A stretch of 42,347 nt of DNA from a virus. The notes under the pieces are model-generated. The model saw nothing but the letters and a program-made list of their open reading frames with translations, was not told the DNA's origin and searched no databases. The stretch spans positions 1 to 42,347 of IMG/VR virus record IMGVR_UViG_3300028383_000093; one strand, written 5' to 3'. The position numbers and the translations under genes were made by a program. This document shows, piece after piece, positions 1 to 34,578 of this stretch. Numbering within the stretch: the first letter of the stretch is position 1; each line of letters starts with the position of its first letter.

Positions 1-895
1 TGAGGTACGTGAACTTGACCTTGTCTCCATTACTTACTTTGCCGTACCGGGAACCATTCCCCGACCGATCGATCCAGTTGTTGTACAGGAGAGCACCCCG
101 AACATGAATCGGTGTCCCCTTCAGGTATATACTACTCGGATCAACCCATTTGTCAATATCCGATACGCCACGCGGGAACGATACATCCTCGGGGGGGAGT
201 GTCTTGAAGTGCCGCTTGAATGTCTGGATCGCTTCCTGTGACTTCTCTTCGGACCCCGAGATAATCACCTTGAAAATCTCTTTCAAGCCCTCACGACACG
301 CCGATGGGGTTGACGACTTGATCGCCTCGATACCCATGATCTTGAGTTTGGGGTCGGAGTACCTGACACCCTCATTATCATGGACATTGAGGATATACCG
401 CTTCTTGGCCGTCCAGATACCACGATCGGCAATCACTTCCCGAGACATTTCCATGCGGTTTTCGTACCCGCCAAACCGATCGTACATACGGGCATACGCA
501 TCGGCGATAACCGGCTCGATCTTCTCGGAGCAGATCGTGTCAAGGAAGTCTATGGGCTTGGACGGCTTGAACCGATCGACCAGATCGCCCATATTGACAT
601 ACAATGAGTCTGTATCAATCGCAATCACATAGTCGACCGAATCAGTCGACAGGATCTTGTTCAGGTACTGGTTCACTGCCTTCTCGGCCCACTGGATCGC
701 CATGCGTCCGGATGCCGTGATCCCCTCGGCCATTGGCATCGAGAAGTACCGAAAGTATTGATTGCCATAGGCACCGTACAGCGAATTCAAGCTAATTTTG
801 ATACTCTGCTCTTTTGTACCAAGATTAAGGACCTTCTTTGAAATATTTTTTCTAAGGGCTAAAAGTTCATCGTCGGTATACTCACTCAATTCCAT
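1..895 (-). CDS. 43: DNA polymerase gp43, C-terminal fragment (43B), cut by window edge
   Basis: Second half of a split family B replicative DNA polymerase. The reverse strand is open from an ATG at 895 to the window edge. The translation begins MELSEYTDDELLALRKNISK, then polymerase motif B (KISLNSLYGAYGN) and motif C (AIDTDSLY), the catalytic Asp pair of the palm. Motif A and the exonuclease lie on the separate upstream gene at 1908-3392. The ATG lies inside the last codons of the intervening endonuclease gene (10-base overlap), with an AGAGG ribosome site 8-9 bases upstream inside that gene, so translation is probably coupled. No polymerase segment looks missing: the end of 43A and the start of 43B join at a fingers helix. 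Known in the family: T4-like Aeromonas phages also have split gp43 polymerases. Inference: the two chains assemble into one enzyme. The C-terminal thumb and clamp-binding tail are outside the window. Confidence 0.93.
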   Translation of the reverse strand, partial: MELSEYTDDELLALRKNISKKVLNLGTKEQSIKISLNSLYGAYGNQYFRYFSMPMAEGITASGRMAIQWAEKAVNQYLNKILSTDSVDYVIAIDTDSLYVNMGDLVDRFKPSKPIDFLDTICSEKIEPVIADAYARMYDRFGGYENRMEMSREVIADRGIWTAKKRYILNVHDNEGVRYSDPKLKIMGIEAIKSSTPSACREGLKEIFKVIISGSEEKSQEAIQTFKRHFKTLPPEDVSFPRGVSDIDKWVDPSSIYLKGTPIHVRGALLYNNWIDRSGNGSRYGKVSNGDKVKFTYL

Positions 896-1842
896 TGCAA
901 CAACCTCTCAAAACACTTGCACTTTGTATCATTTATTTCAAAGTCTGTAAACCTTATCACAAGGTACCCATGATCAGACGCATACTCTTCAAATTTTCTG
1001 TCCAATTCTTTTTGCTCGTCCGTTGAGTGCCAGTATACCCCGTCGATCTCAACCAGTATGCCCACATCGTTTATTAAGAAGTCGTATCTATGGGTGCCAG
1101 ATTGTATTTGATATTGGCGAGTGTAATCGACATCATTTTCATCACACCATTTAGCAAACGCCCTTTCCGGTTGTGTAAATCTGTATGCACCTTCACTTTG
1201 CAAATGAATGCCGATAATACCATCATAGGCAAGTTTTCTTTGGCGTTCTCTTGCTTCTTCGGTCCAGACAAGCTCGGCTCTTTCTGAGTACGATCTAACA
1301 GGTATGCTATACTTGTGGATAAGTGTGCGGATGTAATTGTTTGGGACATCAAAAAGATTAGCAATCTCTTTCATAGTCTTTTTTTCAATATGATATAATT
1401 CGTGAAGTTCATTTTTTTGTATTTTAGGACGATCTTTAAGATGTGCCTCTGATATCCTGTCTCTATGTATTTCGTTCTTTTTTCTTGAAAGTATTTCAGG
1501 GCGCCTCTCTTTAATTGCTGCATACATTTGCCAATAATTGGCTGAAAGATCTTTGCAGATTTGTCTCAAAGACTCCCCAGTCTCTAAAGAGGATATGACA
1601 GAGTCGATGTTTTCATCTATTTCTTTTTTAATGCTAGGATCTTTAATCCCTTTGTAATGAGAATGTGCAATTATATAATACCCATGGCTACTCTCTATTA
1701 GAGTTTTTGCTCCACGATAACGAATATTTAATATGCGACATATCTCAGGGAGATTTGTCCCCGTTTTGTTAAGGTTAATAATCGTGCCAATATTTTCCGA
1801 TATCATTCTTTGCTGCTTTTCTTGTACTGTTTCCTTTTTCAT
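886..1842 (-). CDS. Homing endonuclease, Vsr/EDxHD (PD-(D/E)XK-like) type, splitting gp43
   Basis: A 318-residue free-standing endonuclease between the two halves of the DNA polymerase gene. The N-terminal two thirds hold three helix-turn-helix-like repeats (about residues 18-50, 75-112 and 145-185, e.g. TMKEIANLFDVPNNYIRTLI), presumably for DNA recognition. The C-terminal domain (from about 220) has the Vsr-like set E226, D254 in HRYDF, E265-I-D in VEIDGVYWH, H272 and D281, which fits the EDxHD homing nucleases found in fractured phage genes. The gene is visibly richer in A+T than the polymerase halves, a sign of transfer. Its stop overlaps the start of 43B. A TATAAGTA element about 35 bases upstream could be a variant late promoter. 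The target is presumably the intact gp43 fingers sequence of related phages. Family assignment is from motifs only. Confidence 0.85.
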   Translation of the reverse strand: MKKETVQEKQQRMISENIGTIINLNKTGTNLPEICRILNIRYRGAKTLIESSHGYYIIAHSHYKGIKDPSIKKEIDENIDSVISSLETGESLRQICKDLSANYWQMYAAIKERRPEILSRKKNEIHRDRISEAHLKDRPKIQKNELHELYHIEKKTMKEIANLFDVPNNYIRTLIHKYSIPVRSYSERAELVWTEEARERQRKLAYDGIIGIHLQSEGAYRFTQPERAFAKWCDENDVDYTRQYQIQSGTHRYDFLINDVGILVEIDGVYWHSTDEQKELDRKFEEYASDHGYLVIRFTDFEINDTKCKCFERLLQWN

Positions 1843-1876
1843 TTTGGATACACCTGCTCTACGTTTGTCGTACTAT

Positions 1877-1884
1877 TACTTATA
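1877..1884 (-). promoter_or_regulatory. Possible T4-type late promoter (variant TATAAGTA)
   Basis: On the minus strand TATAAGTA sits about 35 bases upstream of the Vsr-like endonuclease start. It differs by one base from the TATAAATA late box used elsewhere in this window. It would let the endonuclease be made late, independently of polymerase transcription. Weak evidence: one mismatch in an A+T-rich gap. Confidence 0.35.
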
Positions 1885-1907
1885 ACATGCAGCACCCAAA
1901 ATAATAA

Positions 1908-3392
1908 TTAATTGACCCCTCTCTTCCTTAGTTCTTTATCAATCTCCTCAAGCTCTGTTTTCTTTTGGAGCATCTCTTTCTTCACACTTTTTCGCTCTTT
2001 GTACATGCTGGCCACGATCTCGGGGATCACGCCGCGCTCACTGGTCTGGAATAACGCCCCGTTTGCGGCGAGGGCATACCCATCAGGGGCCTCGACCTTT
2101 TCGTCAAGACATCGCTGGACCGTCACATTATCCTTGGTCCTTGGGGCAAGCATCTCGGGAGACATGTTGTTCTGTACGATGATCGACGGGTACAGCGAGT
2201 TGAGGTCAAGTGACACGACCCACTTGTGCAGCCCGATCTTCGGGTCCTTGACATACCCACCATCGTACTTTGCTTTATGCGTATCCTCATTCGGGGGAAC
2301 CACGATATTCCGATCCATCAGGGTGCGGTAGATAATCGTGTCCCAGATACCTGTCGTTCCAAAGGTATCGGTGTAGTTGACCCCACCACGGTATGCCATC
2401 GTAAGAGCCAGATTGATCAGACCCAGTTTTTCGTCTATCCGGTGAATCAGTTCCACGTCACGGATGTTATACTCAAGGAACTTCTGGTAATCGTGTTCGT
2501 ACAGGTCATCGAGATTCGAGTACTCCTCGTACGATAGCTTCCGCTCCCCGAGTACCGTGTTTGCGATCGTGTCAAGGCGGTAGTTTTCCTGTTCACCGTA
2601 CGTGTACCCAAACTTCTTGAACAGGTCCATGTAGTCAAGCTGCTGAATGCCGTACAGGACATATGCCTCGCGGGGCTTTTTCATCATCATGACCGTGCGT
2701 TGATTGATGACCCGCCATGGCGACATCTTCTTCAGCATATCGGACCCGACGATCTTGTTGATCCGATTGACCAGATACGGGATATCAAACAGTTGGGTGT
2801 TCCACCCCGTCACCACGTCGGGCGACAGACTCTCTGAATCCCAGTATTCAAGGAACCGGATCAGGAGATCACCCTCATCGGTGCAGTGAATATACTTGAC
2901 CGAGTACTCGGACGCCGACTCATCAAACTCCTTGGTCCCAAAAACATAGTATGTCGAGTCACGCGAACTCTTGAGTGTGATGGCCGTGACTGGCTGCTTT
3001 GCTTCCTCGGGGTGTGGGAACCCTTCGTCGTTTACCGCCACCTCGATATCGATCGACACCACGTTGACGAGCGATGGGTCAAAATCAATATCTCCGGGGA
3101 AACGGTCATAGATAAACTGGGCCACATAGTTCTGATTACCGTACACGCGGAAGTTCTCGATGTCCCGGTGTGCCTCACAGAAGTCCCGAGCCTCCTTCAT
3201 GTTCGAGAACTCTCGCGGCTTTACACGCACACCATCCAGTGCCGTGTACCCAGTTTCTTCAGAACCCGACGGGACATACAGTGTCGGGGAGAAAGGGATC
3301 TTCCGTGCAATCCTCTCACCTGTACCGCTCTCATACCCCCGGTACAGGATGTTATTTCCATACTTGTTCACACATGTATAAAACTCAGTCAT
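1908..3392 (-). CDS. 43: DNA polymerase gp43, N-terminal fragment (43A)
   Basis: First half of the split replicative polymerase, 494 residues. It carries the N-terminal domain, the 3'-5' exonuclease (Exo I VVSIDIEV with D115/E117; Exo II VTGWNTQLFDIPY; Exo III YNIRDVELI) and the first palm motif A (SLDLNSLYPSI). The chain ends in the charged fingers helix (ELEEIDKELRKRG) just after the palm-to-fingers crossing, then VN and a stop. T4 gp43 is a single chain of 898 residues; here the rest is on 43B. A strong hairpin terminator lies just upstream (3431-3464), so this gene needs read-through or its own promoter; I could not recognise one. The coding content up to the break looks intact. Confidence 0.95.
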   Translation of the reverse strand: MTEFYTCVNKYGNNILYRGYESGTGERIARKIPFSPTLYVPSGSEETGYTALDGVRVKPREFSNMKEARDFCEAHRDIENFRVYGNQNYVAQFIYDRFPGDIDFDPSLVNVVSIDIEVAVNDEGFPHPEEAKQPVTAITLKSSRDSTYYVFGTKEFDESASEYSVKYIHCTDEGDLLIRFLEYWDSESLSPDVVTGWNTQLFDIPYLVNRINKIVGSDMLKKMSPWRVINQRTVMMMKKPREAYVLYGIQQLDYMDLFKKFGYTYGEQENYRLDTIANTVLGERKLSYEEYSNLDDLYEHDYQKFLEYNIRDVELIHRIDEKLGLINLALTMAYRGGVNYTDTFGTTGIWDTIIYRTLMDRNIVVPPNEDTHKAKYDGGYVKDPKIGLHKWVVSLDLNSLYPSIIVQNNMSPEMLAPRTKDNVTVQRCLDEKVEAPDGYALAANGALFQTSERGVIPEIVASMYKERKSVKKEMLQKKTELEEIDKELRKRGVN

Positions 3393-3430
3393 ACAACCTC
3401 GACTACACTTTTTCTAATTCGCAAACATAA

Positions 3431-3464
3431 ACACCCCGGTAGGATATCACACCTGCCGGGGTGT
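3431..3464 (-). terminator. Rho-independent terminator upstream of gp43A
   Basis: Minus-strand hairpin with a 9-bp perfect stem (ACACCCCGG with CCGGGGTGT), extended by AGG/CCT after a mismatch, followed by TTTATGTTTG. It ends the transcript of the small Sm-like gene at 3490-3795 just before the polymerase gene. Confidence 0.8.
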
Positions 3465-3489
3465 CAGCAATAGATTTGTGGGGATTGAT

Positions 3490-3795
3490 CTAAGAGGTAA
3501 CGATGTTCTGGTTCGGGGTCATCAGCTTCGAGAACATGTTCTGGTACTGCTTCTCCAGATCATCGACCGGGTCGGTCATGAACATCACGTCCTTCTCCCC
3601 GATTTTGATCCCCGACTCAGATGCCTTACTGTACGCCATAAACGGGGCAAGGCCAAGTTGGTTTGCCTCCGTGGGGATCAGGATCGCAATGTCCTTGAGT
3701 TCGTACACAACACCACGCGCCGAGGTGCTTTCGCTTTTCTGGACGGTGCAGATAATCTCTTCGCCAGTCGTCAGTCGCAGAATCTTGGTACTCAT
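3490..3795 (-). CDS. Conserved T4-like phage protein, possible Sm-like fold (101 aa)
   Basis: A 101-residue protein beginning MSTKILRLTTGEEIICTV. The opening strand with TGEEII, a middle LKDIAILIPT strand and a C-terminal acidic helix (DPVDDLEKQYQNMFSKLM) match a small conserved family of marine T4-like phages as I remember it; an Sm/LSm-like beta-barrel is an inference, not proven. A longer relative with the same opening pattern (FKLSSGEDIIGIV) is encoded at 15311-15793. It stands alone between two terminators (3828-3869 and 3431-3464). GGAG lies 11 bases before the ATG. Function unknown; RNA binding would be the guess if the fold is right. Confidence 0.8.
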   Translation of the reverse strand: MSTKILRLTTGEEIICTVQKSESTSARGVVYELKDIAILIPTEANQLGLAPFMAYSKASESGIKIGEKDVMFMTDPVDDLEKQYQNMFSKLMTPNQNIVTS

Positions 3796-8183: not shown

Positions 8184-8263
8184 TGGCCGGGCTGGAGGGA
8201 CTCGAACCCCCATGTGTCCAGTTACCCTTTCTCCAGATTAGAAGTCTGAGGGGATACAGCCCG
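8184..8263 (-). tRNA. tRNA-Arg(UCU)-like element lacking a D-arm
   Basis: On the minus strand a 7-bp acceptor stem (CGGGCTG with CAGCCCG), G73 and an encoded CCA can be drawn, with a T-arm whose loop is TTCGAGT. The anticodon arm is textbook: loop CTTCTAA closed by CAGA/TCTG, anticodon TCT at 8242-8240 (Arg). The usual D-arm between acceptor and anticodon arm is missing: only 7 bases are there, which may pair (TA-CCC with GGG-TA) to extend the anticodon stem. A 21-base stretch separates anticodon and T arms. Total length is normal (77 plus CCA). It may be a degenerate tRNA, an unusual functional tRNA, or a tRNA-like RNA. Confidence 0.55.
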
Positions 8264-12917: not shown

Positions 12918-14009
12918 TCACACAGTCTCCTCGTCACTTTGGGCTTCGACATACACCTCTCGCATCATTTGCTTGAGGCGGTCCTTGTCTAGATCCGTGT
13001 CCTCGACCGATTCGACATACGAGTCGATCAGGCCCGGTGTATCGTCCACACTACCAACTCGAGCGTCTTCGGTCAAGTCGACGTTTGCCCCCAAGTACTC
13101 ATCCAGATTCTCGGCCACCTTCAGGTCATGTGCCCCCATGTCATGGAGTGACTGAATAAACTGGTCAAACCGCTTGGGGTCATTGGACCTTGACGTGACA
13201 ATCACCTTGACGTACTTGCCGCTAATGTCCCCGGTTTCAGGACTCGGGACAGAGCCTTCTGGAGAATCGTCGTATTGCAGCTTACAGAACAAGGAGTGTG
13301 GATTGTACACCGGGTAGATAGACCGGGCCTCCGTGTCGATGATATGAAAGCACTTGCGATCATCGGCATCGGCCCATGTGAACTGGGTCTGTGATCCCAG
13401 ATACATGATGTTTCCCTTCACGGAACCTGAGTGGTAATGCCCCGACAGGACTTGCTCGTACCGATCAAATGCCGACGGATCCATCCCATGAGTCGACTTG
13501 ACGCCCCGCATCATGTCAAAGCCTACGATCTCAAAATGACCGGCAAGCCATGTGGCCTTGCACTTTGACTGAATAAACTGGAGGCACTGCTCTTCGTTGT
13601 CTCGGCTGATCCATGGCACGACCCCGATCTTCATCCCCGAGTAGTCGAGTACCTCCGGCTCCTCGATAATATGGATGTTGTTGAGGAAGTGCCCGAGCAT
13701 CTCCTTCAGGGAGTTGAGCGAGTTGGTCGACTTATAGTACACGTCATGGTTACCCGGAATGATATCCATCGTCATCCCAGTATCGCGCATACGCTCAAGG
13801 AACATCTTTCGGGCTTCGTACTGGGTGCGAACCGAGATCGCTTTCCGGTTATCGTACAGGTCACCGAGATGGAGGATCTGACTGATACCTTCCTTCTCGA
13901 CGGTCGGGAAGAAGACCTTCTCGAAGAACTCGCGCTGATTTGCACTCACGGCCTCGGAGCCTCCCCGAGCACCAAAGTGCGTATCGTTCAGGACCGCTAT
14001 TTTGCTCAT
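12918..14009 (-). CDS. 47: Recombination endonuclease subunit gp47 (Mre11/SbcD-like)
   Basis: 363 residues (T4 339). Calcineurin-like phosphoesterase motifs in order: VLNDTHFGARGG, LHLGDLYDNRK, IIPGNHDVYYKS, WLAGHFEI and VLSGHYHSGS, which place the metal-binding Asp/His/Asn residues. It forms the nuclease with gp46. Its start overlaps the Mom-like gene as ATGA. The C-terminal part is acidic, as usual for this subunit. Confidence 0.97.
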   Translation of the reverse strand: MSKIAVLNDTHFGARGGSEAVSANQREFFEKVFFPTVEKEGISQILHLGDLYDNRKAISVRTQYEARKMFLERMRDTGMTMDIIPGNHDVYYKSTNSLNSLKEMLGHFLNNIHIIEEPEVLDYSGMKIGVVPWISRDNEEQCLQFIQSKCKATWLAGHFEIVGFDMMRGVKSTHGMDPSAFDRYEQVLSGHYHSGSVKGNIMYLGSQTQFTWADADDRKCFHIIDTEARSIYPVYNPHSLFCKLQYDDSPEGSVPSPETGDISGKYVKVIVTSRSNDPKRFDQFIQSLHDMGAHDLKVAENLDEYLGANVDLTEDARVGSVDDTPGLIDSYVESVEDTDLDKDRLKQMMREVYVEAQSDEETV

Positions 14010-14605
14010 ATAATTACCCGTGATTTCCAGTATTTTCTATCGGTTTTATTGGTTCCGACGATTAACAGATATCTGACTTTGGCATTCCTTTTCTCTCTAG
14101 TCCACCCTCTTTTTTTAGCCTCTTGGTGTGAGATATTAACTCCTGACTGCCGGGGATGCCTAAGCCTACCCTCTCCGTCCCTGTAAAACCAAGCAGGCGA
14201 ACTGGTTCCTTTCCACTCAAAATTAAGTGCCTTGTAAATAGTACCAGTATGCCCTTCTGTTGTATCTGCAAAAGAGAGAATCCCTTTCACAAGTGGCTTA
14301 TACTCGACAAGCCCCTTTATAGCGCGAGAAACAAACCAAGAGGTTGTATTTTCGGGCAGGTCATCTTGCGTGTATAGTCGATGTAATTCCGTAACCCGAT
14401 CTTTATGCTCAGGACCAAAAACACTTCGTCTTACATTTTCCGAGCATGGTGTTGCAAAAGCACACACTCCGACAAGGGAATCATCTCGATATAGACCCCA
14501 GCACATAGGACCATTGTGGCAGCTTTTGCTGTAGTGATTTTCTCGTATATATGCTTTCCCTATCTTGGATGAGATTTTTTTAACTGATAAATCAACAATG
14601 GCCAT
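14006..14605 (-). CDS. Mom-like GNAT-fold protein, candidate DNA base modifier
   Basis: 199 residues from ATG 14605, which overlaps the gp55 end by 14 bases. The family pattern is clear: AYIRENHYSKSCHNGPMCWG, LVGVCAFATPCS, VTELHRLYTQDDLPENTTSW, ILSFADTTEGHTGTIYKALN. These match the Mom group of GNAT-like proteins; in phage Mu, Mom converts adenine to a carbamoylmethyl form that blocks restriction. Whether this enzyme modifies DNA, and which base, is inference; relatives of unknown activity share the fold. It sits between gp55 and gp47, both conserved neighbours, and is richer in A+T than either, so it looks like an inserted accessory gene kept in the operon by start/stop overlaps. Confidence 0.7.
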   Translation of the reverse strand: MAIVDLSVKKISSKIGKAYIRENHYSKSCHNGPMCWGLYRDDSLVGVCAFATPCSENVRRSVFGPEHKDRVTELHRLYTQDDLPENTTSWFVSRAIKGLVEYKPLVKGILSFADTTEGHTGTIYKALNFEWKGTSSPAWFYRDGEGRLRHPRQSGVNISHQEAKKRGWTREKRNAKVRYLLIVGTNKTDRKYWKSRVII

Positions 14606-15176
14606 CCTTTGGTTCCTGTTCTTGCTCCTGCTCCAGCCGCTTCTGCTCGCGCTCAAAGTCCTTGAGTACTTGATCCCGCACATGGACCTGATCGATGCGC
14701 TCGCGCAGAGAATCGACAAATGCCGCGCTGTCTGATACCACGTGCTGGCTACCACCTTCCTCAAGAAAACCTTCGAGGCCCGACTCTTCCATAAACTTGG
14801 TGCGGATATCGTACTGCCGCTTCTCGCGTTGCAGTCTCCGCAAGAATGCATAGTACGAGATCTGAGTAAAGTATGCAAATGCGTTTGGTGATCCGGTCCG
14901 GGTGGCTGCATCTATGTTATAGTTCTTGACGGCCTTGAGGCAGTTCTCGACGGCGTCCATGACCATCTCTTCTCGGTACGTGTACCGGACAAAGTTGGAC
15001 TTATGAGATAAACCTTCCGCGATCTTGAGGAAGCACTCGGCGATATAGTCAGGTACCTCGGGGATAGGGTCACCTGCCGCATCGGCCTCATTCACTTCCC
15101 TGACATACTCGACTACAGCAGCCGAGAACTCTTTGTTGTTGACATAGTGGTGGGGTGCTCTTCGCTCTACTGGCAT
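14592..15176 (-). CDS. 55: Late-transcription sigma factor gp55
   Basis: 194 residues (T4 185). Matches T4 gp55: HHYVNNKEFSAAVVEYV, LKIAEGLSHKSNFVRYTY, EEMVMDAVENCLKAVKNYNI and PNAFAYFTQISYYAFLRRLQ, a short sigma70 region 2-like protein. It directs host RNA polymerase to TATAAATA late promoters, of which at least seven exact copies occur in this window. A likely promoter is at 15211-15240. The C-terminal tail is an unusual Gln/Glu-rich stretch (EREQKRLEQEQEQEPK). Confidence 0.95.
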   Translation of the reverse strand: MPVERRAPHHYVNNKEFSAAVVEYVREVNEADAAGDPIPEVPDYIAECFLKIAEGLSHKSNFVRYTYREEMVMDAVENCLKAVKNYNIDAATRTGSPNAFAYFTQISYYAFLRRLQREKRQYDIRTKFMEESGLEGFLEEGGSQHVVSDSAAFVDSLRERIDQVHVRDQVLKDFEREQKRLEQEQEQEPKDGHC

Positions 15177-15805: not shown

Positions 15806-16135
15806 TCACTCATCCTTTAGTTTGATCTGATTGATCGTGTACTCAAATCGCTCACGTGCATAGATTTTGATCCGCTCGGATGCATGGTTCAGGGTATAGT
15901 TCCTGTAACTGTCACCTATATGTAGGTCATCGGCAATGTCGTACACCTGTGTGGGTCGCCCATCGTCCGACACCCTGAGTCCTCGACCAATCGACTGGAG
16001 AATGCGGATCTGGGACTTGGACGGGGAGGCAAATACGATATTGTGGATGTTCCGAATGTTAATACCCGTGCTGAAACATCCCATACTAGCAGCTATTACC
16101 ACACCTTTTCCGCGTTCAACTTTACTTGGTTTCAT
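15806..16135 (-). CDS. uvsW: UvsW helicase, C-terminal fragment
   Basis: 109 residues carrying the end of helicase domain 2: GVVIAASMGCFSTGINIRNI, HNIVFASPSKSQIRILQSIG and GRGLRVSDDGRP, helicase motifs V and VI with the arginine finger (QSIGRGLR). The ATG at 16135 overlaps the HNH endonuclease stop (TAATG), so it can be made as a separate chain. Helicase motifs I to III are on the upstream fragment (16832-18220). The halves must associate, or be joined by RNA splicing, to give an active helicase. Confidence 0.9.
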   Translation of the reverse strand: MKPSKVERGKGVVIAASMGCFSTGINIRNIHNIVFASPSKSQIRILQSIGRGLRVSDDGRPTQVYDIADDLHIGDSYRNYTLNHASERIKIYARERFEYTINQIKLKDE

Positions 16136-16809
16136 TATTTCTTTCTTCTTTCTTCTCTTGCTTTCCTACGTGCTTCTAGCATCTTTTCTCTCCATACAGG
16201 GTCTGCCCATTTTTCTTTAAGCGCACTTCCATCAGATCCACGAGGTTTTCTCTTAGACATTTTCTCTCGCCACTCTGGATCAGACCATTTTTGTTTTAAT
16301 GATTCACTAGCCTTTTTTCTTTTATTTGGGTCTTTATTAACCAAGTTCATTTTTTGTTTAAACGCGTCACGTTCTTCAGCAGGCATTTTATCCCATCGTT
16401 TTTGAACAACGCGATGTAGTCTTTCTTGTCCCTCAGGGCTATTTCTTTCTGCGATCATAGACTGTCGAATATCTTCACGCTTTTTAGCCCACATTTCTCT
16501 GAAGTGATGGCTAAGTGATTCAGCATGTTTTCTTTTCAACCAGCCATGTAACTTATTGTTCATCCTTTGATTAGTGCTATGGAATTGCATATTCCACGCA
16601 GCAAACACGAGGCCATTATTATTCGGGTGCATTTTCACGAGAAGTAAATGCGCCAAATAATGTTCTTCTGGTGTAAGAGAGCAAATGTTGTCAGGATCAT
16701 CAGTACCACCAATACACTTTGGCACCACATGATGTTTTTCCAAATATCCTTCTAGTACTCTGTTTCTAGCTTTGTTTATTAAATTGTCATATATTTTATG
16801 GTAATTCAT
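16135..16809 (-). CDS. HNH homing endonuclease splitting uvsW
   Basis: 224 residues. The HNH core is at residues 20-54 (YLEKHHVVPKCIGG, then N41 and H50/H54 in DNICSLTPEEHYLAH). The C-terminal two thirds are a basic region with repeated units of the form KWSDPEWREKM (about 165-175 and 190-200), probably DNA-binding. Strongly A+T-rich compared with the helicase halves. It has its own late promoter and a hairpin that should block translation from early read-through RNA. Its stop overlaps the start of the uvsW C-terminal fragment. Whether it is a free-standing gene in a split gene or lies in an intron is not settled. Confidence 0.88.
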   Translation of the reverse strand: MNYHKIYDNLINKARNRVLEGYLEKHHVVPKCIGGTDDPDNICSLTPEEHYLAHLLLVKMHPNNNGLVFAAWNMQFHSTNQRMNNKLHGWLKRKHAESLSHHFREMWAKKREDIRQSMIAERNSPEGQERLHRVVQKRWDKMPAEERDAFKQKMNLVNKDPNKRKKASESLKQKWSDPEWREKMSKRKPRGSDGSALKEKWADPVWREKMLEARRKAREERRKK

Positions 16810-24351: not shown

Positions 24352-26055
24352 TTAGAATGAATTGAGAAGATCTTTGAAAAACTTCATCTGAGCATCGGCC
24401 ACCCGCGACTCAGGAATCGTACGAATCTCTTTGTTGTACTGGTCGATCTGCTGGGCCTTGATTGTTCCGTTATCGACAAAGTACTCGACCCCCTCCATAA
24501 TACCGTTGACGAATGCCTCGGGAGCCGATGGATCCTGCACCACATCGACGGTCGCAAGCATAAAGTCGTCTTTGACGTATGTCTTGCCGCCGCGCTCTTG
24601 CAATGAACCCATCCCACGAGTCGACACGCCAAGCTGGACCTCACCTTCCATCAACCCCTTGACGATCTGGCCCATCGGCGTATCAAGTACCTGTGCCCGA
24701 CCAATCACATTGTCGCCGTCCCAGCGGAGTTCAGTGATCCGGTGAGATACCCGATCAAGGTTGACGGTGGGGGAGTTGCCTGTCCAGAATGTGTATTGCT
24801 GTTTGCCGTCACCATCCCTGACCAAAAAGTTGGAGTTGTCTACAGTAAGACAGTACACTTTATCGTCATAGTTATGCAATTTTTCAATCTTCAAAAATCT
24901 TTTATCAATGTACACTCCACTGGTCTGGATAAACCGCGCAAAGTATAGACGATTTTTGTTTGATTTCTTAATGATTCGACCAGCAAATTTATAATCTTTT
25001 TCTGTATCTACGTAAAATTTACGTGTCGCAATTCCGGCTATTGATGATACGGCCATCAATTCATCGATAAGGCGTTCTGATGTTGAAAACATGTCACACC
25101 GAACATACTTTTTATTGACAGTGCCTCGACCATCACCATCTACAAATCCCTCAAGAAGATGACTTGCGCTTTTGGCATCAAGAGCATTAATAACGTGGGG
25201 ATCAATATACTTTTCAGAGCATGTTCCAAATTGAGTCAAATAATTTGCCAATCCCATGTCAGATATTACAAAAATATGATGGGGATTTTTGCTCGATTTT
25301 TTATCCCGTACAGTATACTTTAACCCCATTCGATCTAGGAGGTCTTTGATTTTATCTGCAATAATTCCATCGTTTTGGTGCAAGTATACATGATAGTTAT
25401 TAGGGCGGTCTTTTCTTTTTTGGACACAACCCTCGGCGAGCCAGAATCCCAAAAAGTAACAAAAATCGTCAATATCATACTCTTTATTGCCAACTTCTAT
25501 TACTCGGTTACCTTCAATTTCTGGCACACCATTGGAAGACTTGACAATCTTGTGGTGACGATACTCGTTTTCAAACAGGTCTTGGGCCTCAATGTACTCA
25601 TACTTCCCTTTTCGGTTTATTGTCAAAAACCGATGATTTGGGGTGACTACGGTATCAATTGTTCGCCCTTTGAAGTGATACATTTCACCCTGATAAGGTT
25701 CTTTATATGTACCCTTGACTTCTTGGTATTCCACAAACCCCTTTTTGTTAAGTGTGTATACCTTTTCGCCAATTTCAATGTCTTTGATTTTTTTCCATCC
25801 AGACTTTGTAAGGGCTTCGGTGTTTTCATGAAAACACTCTGGATGACCAAGTTCCCCGACCGCACGACCCTTAGATACCTGAGTCTCATTATACTTGTTG
25901 ACTGCATTCTCAAGTACATCACGCGGGTACACGCGACCGTTCCGGTTGGCCATCTCGGCCTGTGCAAAGATACCCTCGATCATATGCCGACGCTGCCCAT
26001 CAACATCCTCGGCCAGATACTCAAGTTCTTCGGTGTGTTCGGTGATCAGTTTCAT
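24352..26055 (-). CDS. 21: Prohead core protease gp21 interrupted by an in-frame intein
   Basis: 567 residues. Residues 1-73 and 428-567 make a 213-residue gp21 (T4 212): MIEGIFAQAEMANRNGRVYP, VGELGHPE with the catalytic His71, then SPTVNLDRVSHRITELRWDG and LGVSTRGMGSL with the catalytic Ser. The intein occupies residues 74-427 and must splice out before the protease can fold. The insertion point lies 3 residues after the His, the most conserved part of the enzyme. gp21 digests the prohead core and trims gp23 in head maturation. No frameshift is visible. Confidence 0.95.
   Translation of the reverse strand: MKLITEHTEELEYLAEDVDGQRRHMIEGIFAQAEMANRNGRVYPRDVLENAVNKYNETQVSKGRAVGELGHPECFHENTEALTKSGWKKIKDIEIGEKVYTLNKKGFVEYQEVKGTYKEPYQGEMYHFKGRTIDTVVTPNHRFLTINRKGKYEYIEAQDLFENEYRHHKIVKSSNGVPEIEGNRVIEVGNKEYDIDDFCYFLGFWLAEGCVQKRKDRPNNYHVYLHQNDGIIADKIKDLLDRMGLKYTVRDKKSSKNPHHIFVISDMGLANYLTQFGTCSEKYIDPHVINALDAKSASHLLEGFVDGDGRGTVNKKYVRCDMFSTSERLIDELMAVSSIAGIATRKFYVDTEKDYKFAGRIIKKSNKNRLYFARFIQTSGVYIDKRFLKIEKLHNYDDKVYCLTVDNSNFLVRDGDGKQQYTFWTGNSPTVNLDRVSHRITELRWDGDNVIGRAQVLDTPMGQIVKGLMEGEVQLGVSTRGMGSLQERGGKTYVKDDFMLATVDVVQDPSAPEAFVNGIMEGVEYFVDNGTIKAQQIDQYNKEIRTIPESRVADAQMKFFKDLLNSF
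24775..25836 (-). mobile_element. Intein with LAGLIDADG endonuclease inside gp21
   Basis: 354 residues. Begins with Cys74 (CFHENTEALTKSGWKKIKDI, block A); block B is TVVTPNHRFLTI; the two LAGLIDADG-type motifs are FLGFWLAEG and LLEGFVDGDG; block F is KVYCLTVDNSNFLVRD. It ends TFWTGN before Ser428. The usual penultimate His is replaced by Gly, as in some known inteins. A+T-rich compared with the gp21 exteins, fitting recent homing. Confidence 0.95.
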
Positions 26056-31615: not shown

Positions 31616-33016
31616 TTAGTGAAAGATGCCAAAGTCAGGCGTATCATCTGATACCCATACATCACCGTCGATCACTTCGTACCGATTATCAAGGCCATTA
31701 TCGATTTCACCGAACGGAAGAACATCGTCCTCGATCATTTTCATCTGCTCTTCGTACATCATCTTCTTGACATCGATATCGGTAAACTCGGCGAACATCT
31801 GAGTTGTTGCAAACCATGCAAATAGTACAAGGTTCATGACCAAATCATCATGGTTTCCATCAGCCGCTTCGTACGAAGACCCACGTGCAACGAATGTCGA
31901 CAACTCGATGATCGTCGGCGAGTCCCGCACCCATAACTGACCTTCCTCGATCAGATCCTTGAGGTTCGAGACACCAATTCGTTTGACCTTCTTGTCCATA
32001 TACACTCCGATGCCAGTCGACTTGATTGCCGACTCGACAAACACGTTTTCATACTCCAGTTCATAGTACAGGCCATTACACACCACCGAACCCTGATCGT
32101 TGTTCTCGATAACAACATATGCATCATTGTACGTGCGGGCATACTTGTAGATGATATCGGGGAACAGGAGCGGGGATATCATACTGTCCTGATACACGGC
32201 CACCTGTTTGAATGGCTTGGACGTGATATCGATGATCGTAAAGGTCGAGAAGTCTTTCCCGCGCCCTTTACACACGTCGACAAACATCATGTAATTGGCA
32301 TCAGGGTCTGGTCGCTCGTACACCCGAACCGAGTCCTGCTGGTAGATCGGATTCTCGGAGTGAAGACCAAGGAGTTTGTCTGCCGAGATCAGGGTGTCGG
32401 ACGTGCCGATAAACTCGTTAGAGAACTCCTGCCGGAACTGCATCTCCGAGGTATTGGCAATTGTCTGTCGCTTCCACTCTTCGTCACGACCCGGTACGTC
32501 CCACCAGTCGATACGAAACGGCTTGTACTCATTTGTCCCCTGTACGGCACCTTCCCAAATCTTGTGGAACAGGTTGCCGACACCGTTGGCCGTCGAGGTA
32601 ATGATGACCTTGGAATTGGCACCCGACGAAATGACCGGGTATGTCGAGGTATAGAATTCCTCGGCCCGGTTCACGAACGCAAACTCATCCAAGAAAATGA
32701 GGTCGCAATTATGGCTAATGACACCATTAGTCATGTACGAATGAGTGTCATTTACATTAAAGGCATCGTATACATCAATGCCATTTTCATAATCCAACTC
32801 TTGTATTGCTGTTATTTTTTGATCGGGGTATAAAGAATCTGATTGCGAAAGTTTTTTGCCTTCCTTGAACACACCATCGACAGTCATAAACCGGTGATCT
32901 TCAGTGCAATCGATTGATCCACCACCCGATAAAAATACGCGCAAAAGCGTACCCACCTTTCCTTGGTGAATAAACCCTTCAAAGTTTTTGAATCCTTTTT
33001 CGGTAAGTATTTCCAT
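31616..33016 (-). CDS. 17: Split intein C-part fused to terminase large subunit C-terminal part (gp17C)
   Basis: 466 residues. Residues 1-103 are the C-part of a split intein (MEILTEKGFKNFEGFIHQGK ... block B IDCTEDHRFMTV ... blocks F/G YDAFNVNDTHSYMTNGVISH then N103). Cys104 is the splicing nucleophile and starts the terminase part with Walker B (CDLIFLDEFAFV), ATPase coupling motif (VIITSTANGVG), and the RNase H-like nuclease: MMFVDVCKGRGKD, YVVIENNDQGSVV and NHDDLVMNLVLFAW. Spliced with the 169-residue N-extein this gives a 532-residue gp17. It starts 5 bases after the stop of the N-part gene with its own AAAGG site. Confidence 0.94.
   Translation of the reverse strand: MEILTEKGFKNFEGFIHQGKVGTLLRVFLSGGGSIDCTEDHRFMTVDGVFKEGKKLSQSDSLYPDQKITAIQELDYENGIDVYDAFNVNDTHSYMTNGVISHNCDLIFLDEFAFVNRAEEFYTSTYPVISSGANSKVIITSTANGVGNLFHKIWEGAVQGTNEYKPFRIDWWDVPGRDEEWKRQTIANTSEMQFRQEFSNEFIGTSDTLISADKLLGLHSENPIYQQDSVRVYERPDPDANYMMFVDVCKGRGKDFSTFTIIDITSKPFKQVAVYQDSMISPLLFPDIIYKYARTYNDAYVVIENNDQGSVVCNGLYYELEYENVFVESAIKSTGIGVYMDKKVKRIGVSNLKDLIEEGQLWVRDSPTIIELSTFVARGSSYEAADGNHDDLVMNLVLFAWFATTQMFAEFTDIDVKKMMYEEQMKMIEDDVLPFGEIDNGLDNRYEVIDGDVWVSDDTPDFGIFH
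32708..33016 (-). mobile_element. C-part (103 residues) of the atypical split gp17 intein
   Basis: Contains block B, F and G; only block A is missing and lies on the other gene. This early break resembles the AceL-TerL intein from an Antarctic lake metagenome, which also sits in a phage terminase and has an N-part of about 25 residues and a C-part of about 104. Confidence 0.9.
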
Positions 33017-33021
33017 TAGGG

Positions 33022-34071
33022 CTAACCTTTAAGAAACCCACGTACCCAACCGTCTGGAATGCTGTCGTCTTTATTGATCAGCCTCTTTTCTTTTGTTGCC
33101 GGGTTATGAATGTATATTTTACCTTTGTTTTTTGCGGGTTTACCCTTTTTGGCCTGTGACATTTTACTCTTCGCATCATCAGACCGCTTCATCCCGCGAT
33201 GCTTTTCGGCAGTTTTCCTAATCTTCTCAGGATTTCGATTGATCTTGTCGACCCACTCTTCGCTCTTTTTCCGACCTTTAAGCGAATTACTCCGCTTCTC
33301 TCTAGCTTCCGGGCCGTGTGTTTTGTTGTACCATGCCTGATATTCTTCTTCATTCATTGAGTCAAACATCTGTCGCTTTGATTGACTAATTTTCTTTCCC
33401 ACTTCAGGGGGAACAATTTTGCCTTTATTTGACTCACTGATCAAATTCTTAGTTTCTTCCGAATGCTTACGGGCTTTAAGACTTTCTATAAAAACCCTGC
33501 GTTTTTCCTTATCCTGCCACATTGCTTTAGTGGCCAATGAAATTCGCCGTTTAGACTCTTCTGTATGAACACTTTTTCCGGTATTGTTCCGAGAAATTTT
33601 TTCACGCGTTTCTTTTGTGTGAGTCTTTCCGTAAAAGCCGTTGTTTTCTCCGTAAAGAATACACGCGCCGCCGCCAATAGCGACGTTGTAGGTGTCTCTT
33701 CTACCGACGTATTCTTCATTAACTAGTTCTTTTTCAAGGGCAAGAGCATCCTCTTTACAATCAAAAACCGCAATGATTTCGCGTTCAAAATTTTCAGGAC
33801 CATGTGCCTCTACAGCCCTTTTTAACAGTTTCCCTGATCCAAGATACCCGTCATCGATATTATCCGTTTGATGGAAACCAATGTATTCTTTTCCGTTAAT
33901 CAGATTCTGGGTTCGGTATACAATATTATATTTTTTATTTTTGCCCATGGTCAGTTTATCCTCGATGAGTTTGCTTTTATTATTATATAGTATTTGGGCA
34001 ATTTCTACAGTAGTATAGTATACGTCTCCGTTGTCTAAAGACACACACACTTTGGTGTAATCTGGAACACA
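33022..34071 (-). mobile_element. Intein N-part with in-frame GIY-YIG homing endonuclease
   Basis: From Cys170 of the frame to the stop. IntN is at most 41 residues (34071 to about 33949); the endonuclease is 33022-33948 (308 residues). The whole stretch is A+T-rich against the terminase sequence. Confidence 0.88.
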
Positions 34072-34578
34072 AGACTCGCCACGAACCGACGAAGACGAAG
34101 TCGCTGCCGCAAAAACTTTGGAGTTATTCGAGAACTTAATAGACCCTTTGTTCAGGACCTTGCAGCCGGGTTGGAGAAAGAACGGAAGATTCTCAAGGGC
34201 CAGTGTCAGTCGCCCGAGCATCTCCCGTGCAGTAGACCCTTTGTTCGCAAGTACTGCGATGTTTTTGTCGGGGTGGAATATCGCAAACCACAAGATCCAG
34301 ACGACCGAGGAGATTGACTTACCCGATTGCCGACACGCCAGTACTACCGAAAACCGATTTTCGGTAAAATGATCGAACATATCCTCCTGATACGGGTACA
34401 AGTCAAAACTCGTGAGACCTTCGTCAAGTGATATGACCTTGACATAGTTCTTGGCAAAGTACTTGGGGTCACTCATGCACTTGCGGTATTCGTCAACCTT
34501 ATGCGGTGTCCATTCTTCCTCGACACCGTCTCGCTTGACCTGCGGATTCCCAAGGTATGATCGTTTATCTGTCGTCAT
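33022..34578 (-). CDS. 17: Terminase large subunit N-terminal part (gp17N) + split intein N-part + GIY-YIG endonuclease
   Basis: 518 residues in one frame. Residues 1-169: terminase ATPase with Walker A ACRQSGKSISSVVWIL, ending SSSVRGES as in T4 (AIRGNS before Walker B). Residues 170-210: intein block A beginning CVPDYTKVCVSLDNGDVYYT. Residues 211-518: GIY-YIG homing endonuclease (MGKNKKYNIVYRTQN, KEYIGF, YLGSGKLLKRA) with NUMOD3-type DNA-binding repeats (GKTHTKETREKISRNNTGKS) and a basic tail. The endonuclease also has its own ATG at 33948 with GAGG 11 bases upstream. The frame overlaps gp16 by 14 bases. The terminase part alone is incomplete. Confidence 0.93.
   Translation of the reverse strand: MTTDKRSYLGNPQVKRDGVEEEWTPHKVDEYRKCMSDPKYFAKNYVKVISLDEGLTSFDLYPYQEDMFDHFTENRFSVVLACRQSGKSISSVVWILWFAIFHPDKNIAVLANKGSTAREMLGRLTLALENLPFFLQPGCKVLNKGSIKFSNNSKVFAAATSSSSVRGESCVPDYTKVCVSLDNGDVYYTTVEIAQILYNNKSKLIEDKLTMGKNKKYNIVYRTQNLINGKEYIGFHQTDNIDDGYLGSGKLLKRAVEAHGPENFEREIIAVFDCKEDALALEKELVNEEYVGRRDTYNVAIGGGACILYGENNGFYGKTHTKETREKISRNNTGKSVHTEESKRRISLATKAMWQDKEKRRVFIESLKARKHSEETKNLISESNKGKIVPPEVGKKISQSKRQMFDSMNEEEYQAWYNKTHGPEAREKRSNSLKGRKKSEEWVDKINRNPEKIRKTAEKHRGMKRSDDAKSKMSQAKKGKPAKNKGKIYIHNPATKEKRLINKDDSIPDGWVRGFLKG

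Follow-up and report, generated by a model that had tools for sequence, protein, structure and literature searches.

A kyanovirus-like DNA polymerase gene divided at the fingers tip, with a Vsr-like endonuclease gene between its halves, in an uncultivated virus

Gene 43, encoding the DNA polymerase gp43, is split in the Aeromonas phages 44RR and 25, and the two halves of the phage 25 enzyme co-purify according to the available excerpt of PMC2988022 (citing Petrov, Ratnayaka and Karam 2010). The same excerpt describes nrdA of Aeh1, split into two working chains by mobE, the start site of which stays masked by a hairpin up to the onset of late transcription, and gives this arrangement of hairpin and late promoter as established for I-TevI and mobE. 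A different kind of divided gene is found in MIJ3, for which the accessible part of PMC6892783 reports that the family B DNA polymerase (PolB) is split and accompanied by an endonuclease gene and a split intein. In this study, we analysed the whole of IMG/VR record IMGVR_UViG_3300028383_000093, from an uncultivated virus (42,347 nucleotides (nt); hereafter the window), in which a T4-type PolB is encoded by two genes, 43A and 43B, that meet at the tip of the fingers and are separated by a free-standing homing-type endonuclease gene. We consider it probable that a homing-type endonuclease gene at the fingers tip has left gp43 as two genes, whose chains would reassemble unspliced, and that the endonuclease, made late, would home.

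The precedent of the Aeromonas phages had been named in an earlier reading of this DNA from its letters (hereafter the sequence-only reading) and proved apt, since 44RR and 25 have the same two cistrons and are split at the same fingers tip. Phage 25 further resembles the window in its order of leader hairpin, endonuclease gene and then 43B, with the Shine-Dalgarno (SD) site of 43B in the endonuclease end. It differs in that its endonuclease is of the GIY-YIG (Seg) type and its 43B contains an intron, whereas in the window the nuclease is of the DUF559/Vsr type, no intron was seen, a predicted hairpin covers the endonuclease start and the polymerase is kyanovirus-like; the phage 25 hairpin, in the excerpt of PMC2988022, leaves the ribosome site uncovered. 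Synechococcus phage ACG-2014f (KJ019151) also has a separate 43B and a KKRGV-type 43A tail at the fingers tip, but two small open reading frames (ORFs) and no endonuclease between the halves. With Aeh1 nrdA/mobE and I-TevI the window shares an endonuclease gene within an essential gene (mobE) and a predicted hairpin hiding the start, while the nuclease there is of the HNH or GIY-YIG type, the host gene is another one and the late promoter of the window is only predicted. The PolB of MIJ3 is likewise divided into two pieces that flank an endonuclease gene, but has intein parts, none of which Pfam found in 43A or 43B of the window. The fingers-tip split itself is known from Aeromonas phages; the novelty lies in the type of nuclease, in the comparison across loci and in a setting that is kyanovirus-like. 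Split gp43 in cyanophage-like viruses was the subject of no paper found, judging by title and start of abstract, in a literature search whose coverage mostly leaves out subscription journals.

Locus layout and the position of the break

The features of the locus, all on the minus strand, are as follows.

1908-3392, minus strand: 43A, 494 amino acids (aa), N-terminal half of a T4-type PolB with the exonuclease domain, palm motif A and the first fingers helix
1843-1907, minus strand: intercistronic leader from the 43A stop to the endonuclease start, 65 nt, 35% G+C
1839-1904, minus strand: predicted RNA hairpin pairing the endonuclease start codon and part of the ribosome-site region, fold -18.4 kcal/mol
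1877-1884, minus strand: TATAAGTA, located apically in the hairpin and one letter off the T4-type late promoter TATAAATA
886-1842, minus strand: free-standing homing-type endonuclease, 318 aa, with a weakly matched helix-turn-helix-like N-terminal part and a C-terminal DUF559/Vsr-like nuclease
895-1179, minus strand: nuclease domain, residues 222-316, with E226, D254, E265, H272 and D281
904-909, minus strand: GAGAGG, SD-like site of 43B, inside the endonuclease ORF and ending 8 nt before the ATG
886-895, minus strand: 10 nt shared by the end of the endonuclease gene and the start of 43B, whose ATG is at 895-893
1-895, minus strand: 43B, with the second fingers helix, motif B KxxxNSLYG, palm motif C DTDS and the following part

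The two polymerase halves matched phrog_262, a profile of T4-type DNA polymerases, colinearly, with 43A covering columns 6-496 and 43B columns 500-788. Alignments showed that exonuclease DIEV and the residues SLDLNSLYPS, KxxxNSLYG and DTDS, which we take to be motifs A, B and C, are kept across the halves. The claim that gp43 is split into two separate chains was upheld by this colinear match, by the start that 43B has of its own and by intact active-site motifs on both sides; in the alignment of 43A and 43B with gp43 that the sequence-only reading had proposed, motifs A and B are retained on either side of the break. The reading frame of 43B is open to the end of the record, with 298 aa visible and ~70 C-terminal residues beyond it. 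The closest cultured phage was C48C1 (Kyanoviridae), whose gene is intact (identity 49.5% to 43A and 56.9% to 43B), and the closest locus was L097, also with an intact gp43 (65% identity over 671 columns).

The AlphaFold model of 43A (24 sequences; mean predicted local distance difference test (pLDDT) score 83.1) aligned with residues 1-~513 of RB69 gp43 (Z ~39), its C-terminus falling on RB69 residues ~508-513 in most of the matches listed. Residues 504-530 of RB69 gp43 are described as disordered in crystals of one mutant in the available part of PMC3792054. On the model, the break is in the flexible tip between two fingers helices, outside any helix, with motif A on one side and motif B on the other. 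43A had been thought to end in the fingers helix; the fingers stand, but the end lies at the tip between helices, past the last modelled helix (residues 455-490 of 494). That nothing obvious is lost at the split was right and even understated, as the linker between conserved flanks has 67 residues in the window versus 44 in most intact relatives (~23 more). The fingers-tip position is common to the window, 44RR, phage 25 and ACG-2014f; the junctions of 44RR and the window lie 4 columns apart in an alignment of seven sequences and 16 columns apart in one of eleven, the region being gappy.

The endonuclease and its predicted control

The C-terminal part of the endonuclease matched DUF559 (PF04480) at 1.4e-5, over the cut-off, and its nuclease domain matched the EDxHD enzyme I-Bth0305I (PDB 3r3p) with an E-value of 3.8e-5 and 30% identity across 82 aligned residues, in agreement with the Vsr-type nuclease first recognised. 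E226 and D281 align with 3r3p, while D254 and H272 sit opposite other letters in the 3r3p chain. The resemblance to I-Bth0305I and the EDxHD enzymes, as judged by sequence, lies in the C-terminal nuclease domain; I-Bth0305I is an intron protein according to its PDB entry, and its N-terminal part is unlike that of the putative window endonuclease. No second copy of the endonuclease was found within the record.

The G+C content is 37.3% in the endonuclease gene, 51.5% in 43A and 49.9% in 43B. Over the 20 codons before and the 50 codons after the split, G+C at third codon positions (GC3) was 0.443, and all 582 other stretches of 70 codons were higher, with a minimum of 0.571. The low GC3 flanking the split fits what co-conversion or imported flanks would give, and may partly reflect the composition of the start region.

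The leader hairpin had a z-score of -3.09, with one in 200 shuffles equally stable, and the 43B start region was less structured than its shuffles (z +1.11). TATAARTA was found nine times in the window versus 1.01 expected, and seven of the eight minus-strand sites lie between ORFs, upstream of a start. As the predicted hairpin covers the endonuclease start, the endonuclease would probably be silent early and made late, and 43A and 43B would probably be made early, with 43B starting on its own.

We propose that an endonuclease gene at the flexible fingers tip would have left the polymerase gene as two genes. Aided by the lengthened fingers hairpin, 43A and 43B would reassemble into one polymerase without splicing, as the excerpt of PMC2988022 reports for phage 25. 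From an early read-through RNA, in which the hairpin closes over the endonuclease start, the two polymerase chains would be made and the endonuclease kept off, while a late RNA begun at the TATAAGTA motif would lack the 5' arm of the hairpin and allow the endonuclease to be made. In mixed infections, the endonuclease would then cut uninterrupted gp43 genes and be copied in together with flanking polymerase sequence.

Fingers-tip splits in related viruses

We surveyed 295 gp43 loci (L002-L296), of which 288 had both halves and were reduced, by a 43B segment, to 210 distinct gp43. While 197 of these were intact, 13 were flagged, and 11 of the 13 are fingers-tip splits: L053, L213, L217, L218, L219, L220, L221, L222, ACG-2014f, 44RR and phage 25. 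The last three are references, 44RR and phage 25 having been picked as known splits. The remaining eight, out of 201 distinct IMG/VR loci once nine phage-record references are set aside, give no frequency, because each scan kept the best 80 per query and two queries were led by split relatives. The two other flagged loci are L239/L257, split in the palm part, and L267, which is probably an artefact of unread letters and a frameshift.

The content of the gap varies among these splits. In L213, L219, L221 and L222 there is nothing, or an overlap of stop and start; L217 has ~95 nt, L218 a 62-aa ORF, ACG-2014f its two small ORFs and 44RR a 49-nt spacer, while L053 and phage 25 carry a GIY-YIG endonuclease. 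The L220 gap (2789-3721) holds a purM-like AIR synthetase gene, the start of which is overlapped by the 43A stop. Among cultured phages, the L053 endonuclease is closest to those embedded in gp43 of Aes002 and phage 25 (37-38% identity); its leader forms a predicted hairpin (z -4.49) that holds an exact TATAAATA. To judge from its sequence, L053 would be an independent case combining a fingers-tip split, a GIY-YIG endonuclease and a hairpin leader with TATAAATA. A second insertion point was seen in L239 (3147-3756; also in L257, both grouped by the 43B segment), where an HNH endonuclease splits gp43 in the palm part; its leader hairpin (z -4.93) likewise holds an exact TATAAATA, and the frame of the next ORF opens within the endonuclease end.

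An IQ-TREE phylogeny was built from 52 rows with linker residues removed, 12 split (window included) and 40 others, the palm split L257 being scored as not split at the fingers. The 12 split rows require 11 changes on the tree, and starred branches force 10. Seven ACG-type splits have tail and head sequences in common, and the approximately unbiased (AU) test rejected them as one clade (p 1.1e-44), although the group was named after the tree was seen; raised mutual identity around their junctions was sought, and none was found outside the linker. As 11 changes are needed and an ACG-type clade is rejected, the split state, on this sequence tree, has been gained, lost or moved repeatedly, with gains and losses indistinguishable.

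Split genes also have longer linkers. The fingers linker has 66-88 residues in all 12 splits versus 43-58 in 194 intact loci (measured by alignment, with L004 and L104 left out and T4, L012, given separately by hand), and among ten independent pairs the longer linker went with the split in nine and against it in none, with no difference in one (p 0.004). T4 is an exception among intact genes with ~85 residues, so that a long linker is not by itself enough for a split. Intermediate linkers resembling the tail and head of the ACG-type splits occur in the intact gp43 of L223 and of L299 (Synechococcus phage RN05-S), genes that either precede a split or were fused again after one. Profiles of the ACG-type head and tail scored 7.6 and 4.6 against the window (13 and 59 of 4000 shuffles as good, respectively); since the best of the 194 intact controls scored higher (tail 23.4, head 15.0, both L223), shared linker ancestry of the window and the ACG-type splits is only suggestive.

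Several observations weigh against the course of events proposed above for the window. Splits of the ACG-2014f type contain no endonuclease, so endonuclease insertion is not required for a split. The nearest intact gene, L097, is without the extra tip residues, hence the exact empty site is unseen. Amino-acid identity of the window to its relatives, compared segment by segment with a misaligned L213 row disregarded, gave no clear sign of an imported flank. The endonuclease itself appears to be an orphan: among the stretches from two pattern scans (viral and genome contigs), no relative was confirmed by tblastn, and tblastn otherwise gave one weak phage record and 22 plasmid records matching at the level of domains. 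Its single-sequence model (pLDDT 39.8) was uninformative and was not used. Finally, the TATAAGTA motif deviates from TATAAATA and occurs in 113 of 5000 leader shuffles (2.3%).

It might instead be that the split came first, gp43 undergoing fission where a loop tolerates a stop and a new start, and that the endonuclease settled in the gap later. L213, L219, L221 and L222, split without insertion, favour this order, as do 44RR, with only its short spacer where its close relative phage 25 also has an endonuclease, purM in the L220 gap and a similar argument made for phage 25 in the excerpt of PMC2988022. We regard it as rather unlikely for the window, as the nearest tree neighbours of both the window and L053 are intact, leaving no split-but-empty ancestor in either lineage. 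More generally, we tentatively suggest that the fingers tip may be a recurrent fission site, where a split state with a longer, chain-holding hairpin arises or moves often, survives without an endonuclease and opens an intergenic slot in mid-gene for endonucleases of different classes or even purM. The survey suggests that splitting of the replicative polymerase recurs at one structural point in cyanophage-like viruses, beyond the Aeromonas phages, with or without a selfish gene. This recurrence across lineages is more interesting than the single locus, and provides natural replicates for studying two-chain reassembly, longer fingers helices as a clamp, and homing genes as the cause or the exploiters of fission.

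Expression and joining of the halves, and other genes of the window

The ATG and SD site of 43B were indeed found within the last endonuclease codons, with the overlap of 10 nt previously noticed (GAGAGG at 909-904, overlap at 886-895). An in-frame TGA begins 15 nt ahead of the ATG, thus 43B is no part of a longer fusion. In phage 25, the 43B site AAGAAGGA also lies in the last endonuclease codons, the ATG following 2 nt past the endonuclease stop. The 43B start annotated in Aes002, which may be over-called, lies 22 nt inside the endonuclease. Given these two phages, the overlap seen in the window sequence is neither unique nor proof of dependence. In L053, a sigma-70-like site of its own (11/12 matches) and a ribosome-site-like stretch precede 43B.

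From the overlap, the sequence-only reading had argued that losing the endonuclease would silence 43B, a form of addiction in which 43B translation is coupled to that of the endonuclease and the phage is unable to lose the element. The SD site and ATG of 43B do sit in the endonuclease ORF, and control elements embedded in this way may help an element to be retained, as the excerpt of PMC2988022 argues for the promoters within T4 homing genes. But only the loss of the last ~20 nt would silence 43B, and, as the predicted hairpin buries the endonuclease start alone and the 43B start is unstructured with an SD site of its own, 43B could be translated whether or not the endonuclease is. With the endonuclease predicted to be silent early, the 43B start independent, and polymerases split without any endonuclease in 44RR, L213, L219, L221 and L222, the idea is weakened, and we judge addiction in this strict sense improbable; a mild form of retention survives by analogy with the embedded promoters of PMC2988022. 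The observation of the sequence-only reading is confirmed, and its interpretation partly supported.

A self-splicing intron containing the nuclease ORF, with the full polymerase made from spliced RNA, is the outcome that the same reading had named as its refutation. A group I intron is present in 43B of phage 25 and a putative one in gene 43 of JSE (available part of PMC2993671; record annotation), and Vsr-like endonucleases are known in phage group II introns from the accessible text of PMC12350094. We consider an intron in the window very improbable, as Rfam gave no intron match across the window at the gathering threshold or in 780-2050 at E<=10, non-ORF sequence is limited to 65 nt on the 5' side, with nothing 3' of the ORF, and 43B has its own SD site and start. 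Post-translational joining of the halves by a split intein, as in the fractured PolB of MIJ3 (PMC6892783, in the part available) and in what looks like the construction of the window's own terminase, is scarcely credible here, since no intein or Hint domain was found in 43A or 43B by Pfam, although it detects such domains in both the prohead protease and the C-half of the terminase; Cys and Ser are absent from the final 20 residues of 43A, and 43B begins just 36 residues ahead of the conserved NSLYG.

Several other genes of the window were observed, all on the minus strand. An intein that includes a LAGLIDADG endonuclease interrupts the prohead protease (24352-26055) in frame (PF14890, 5e-9; PF14528, 8e-13). 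A Mom-like DNA modification protein (14006-14911; PF25680, 4.9e-33) adjoins the gp46 and gp47 genes. At 16135-16809 there is a weak HNH match (0.0038, below the cut-off), with TATAAATA 30 nt upstream, within the end of a uvsW-like ORF. A stretch at 8187-8263 matched a tRNA in Rfam (33 bits), on which ARAGORN makes no call.

The large terminase gene (31616-34578) appears to be a fractured gene whose intein is split atypically. Its first ORF (34578-33022) encodes the N-half, which ends in VRGES|C... and continues, without a change of frame, as a GIY-YIG endonuclease that has NUMOD3 motifs, and the second (33016-31616) encodes an intein C-part ending in VISHN|C, followed by the terminase C-half. 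To judge by these ORFs, the terminase is likely a split-intein fractured gene, of the kind reportedly described by Dassa in 2009, and is reminiscent of the AceL-TerL inteins.

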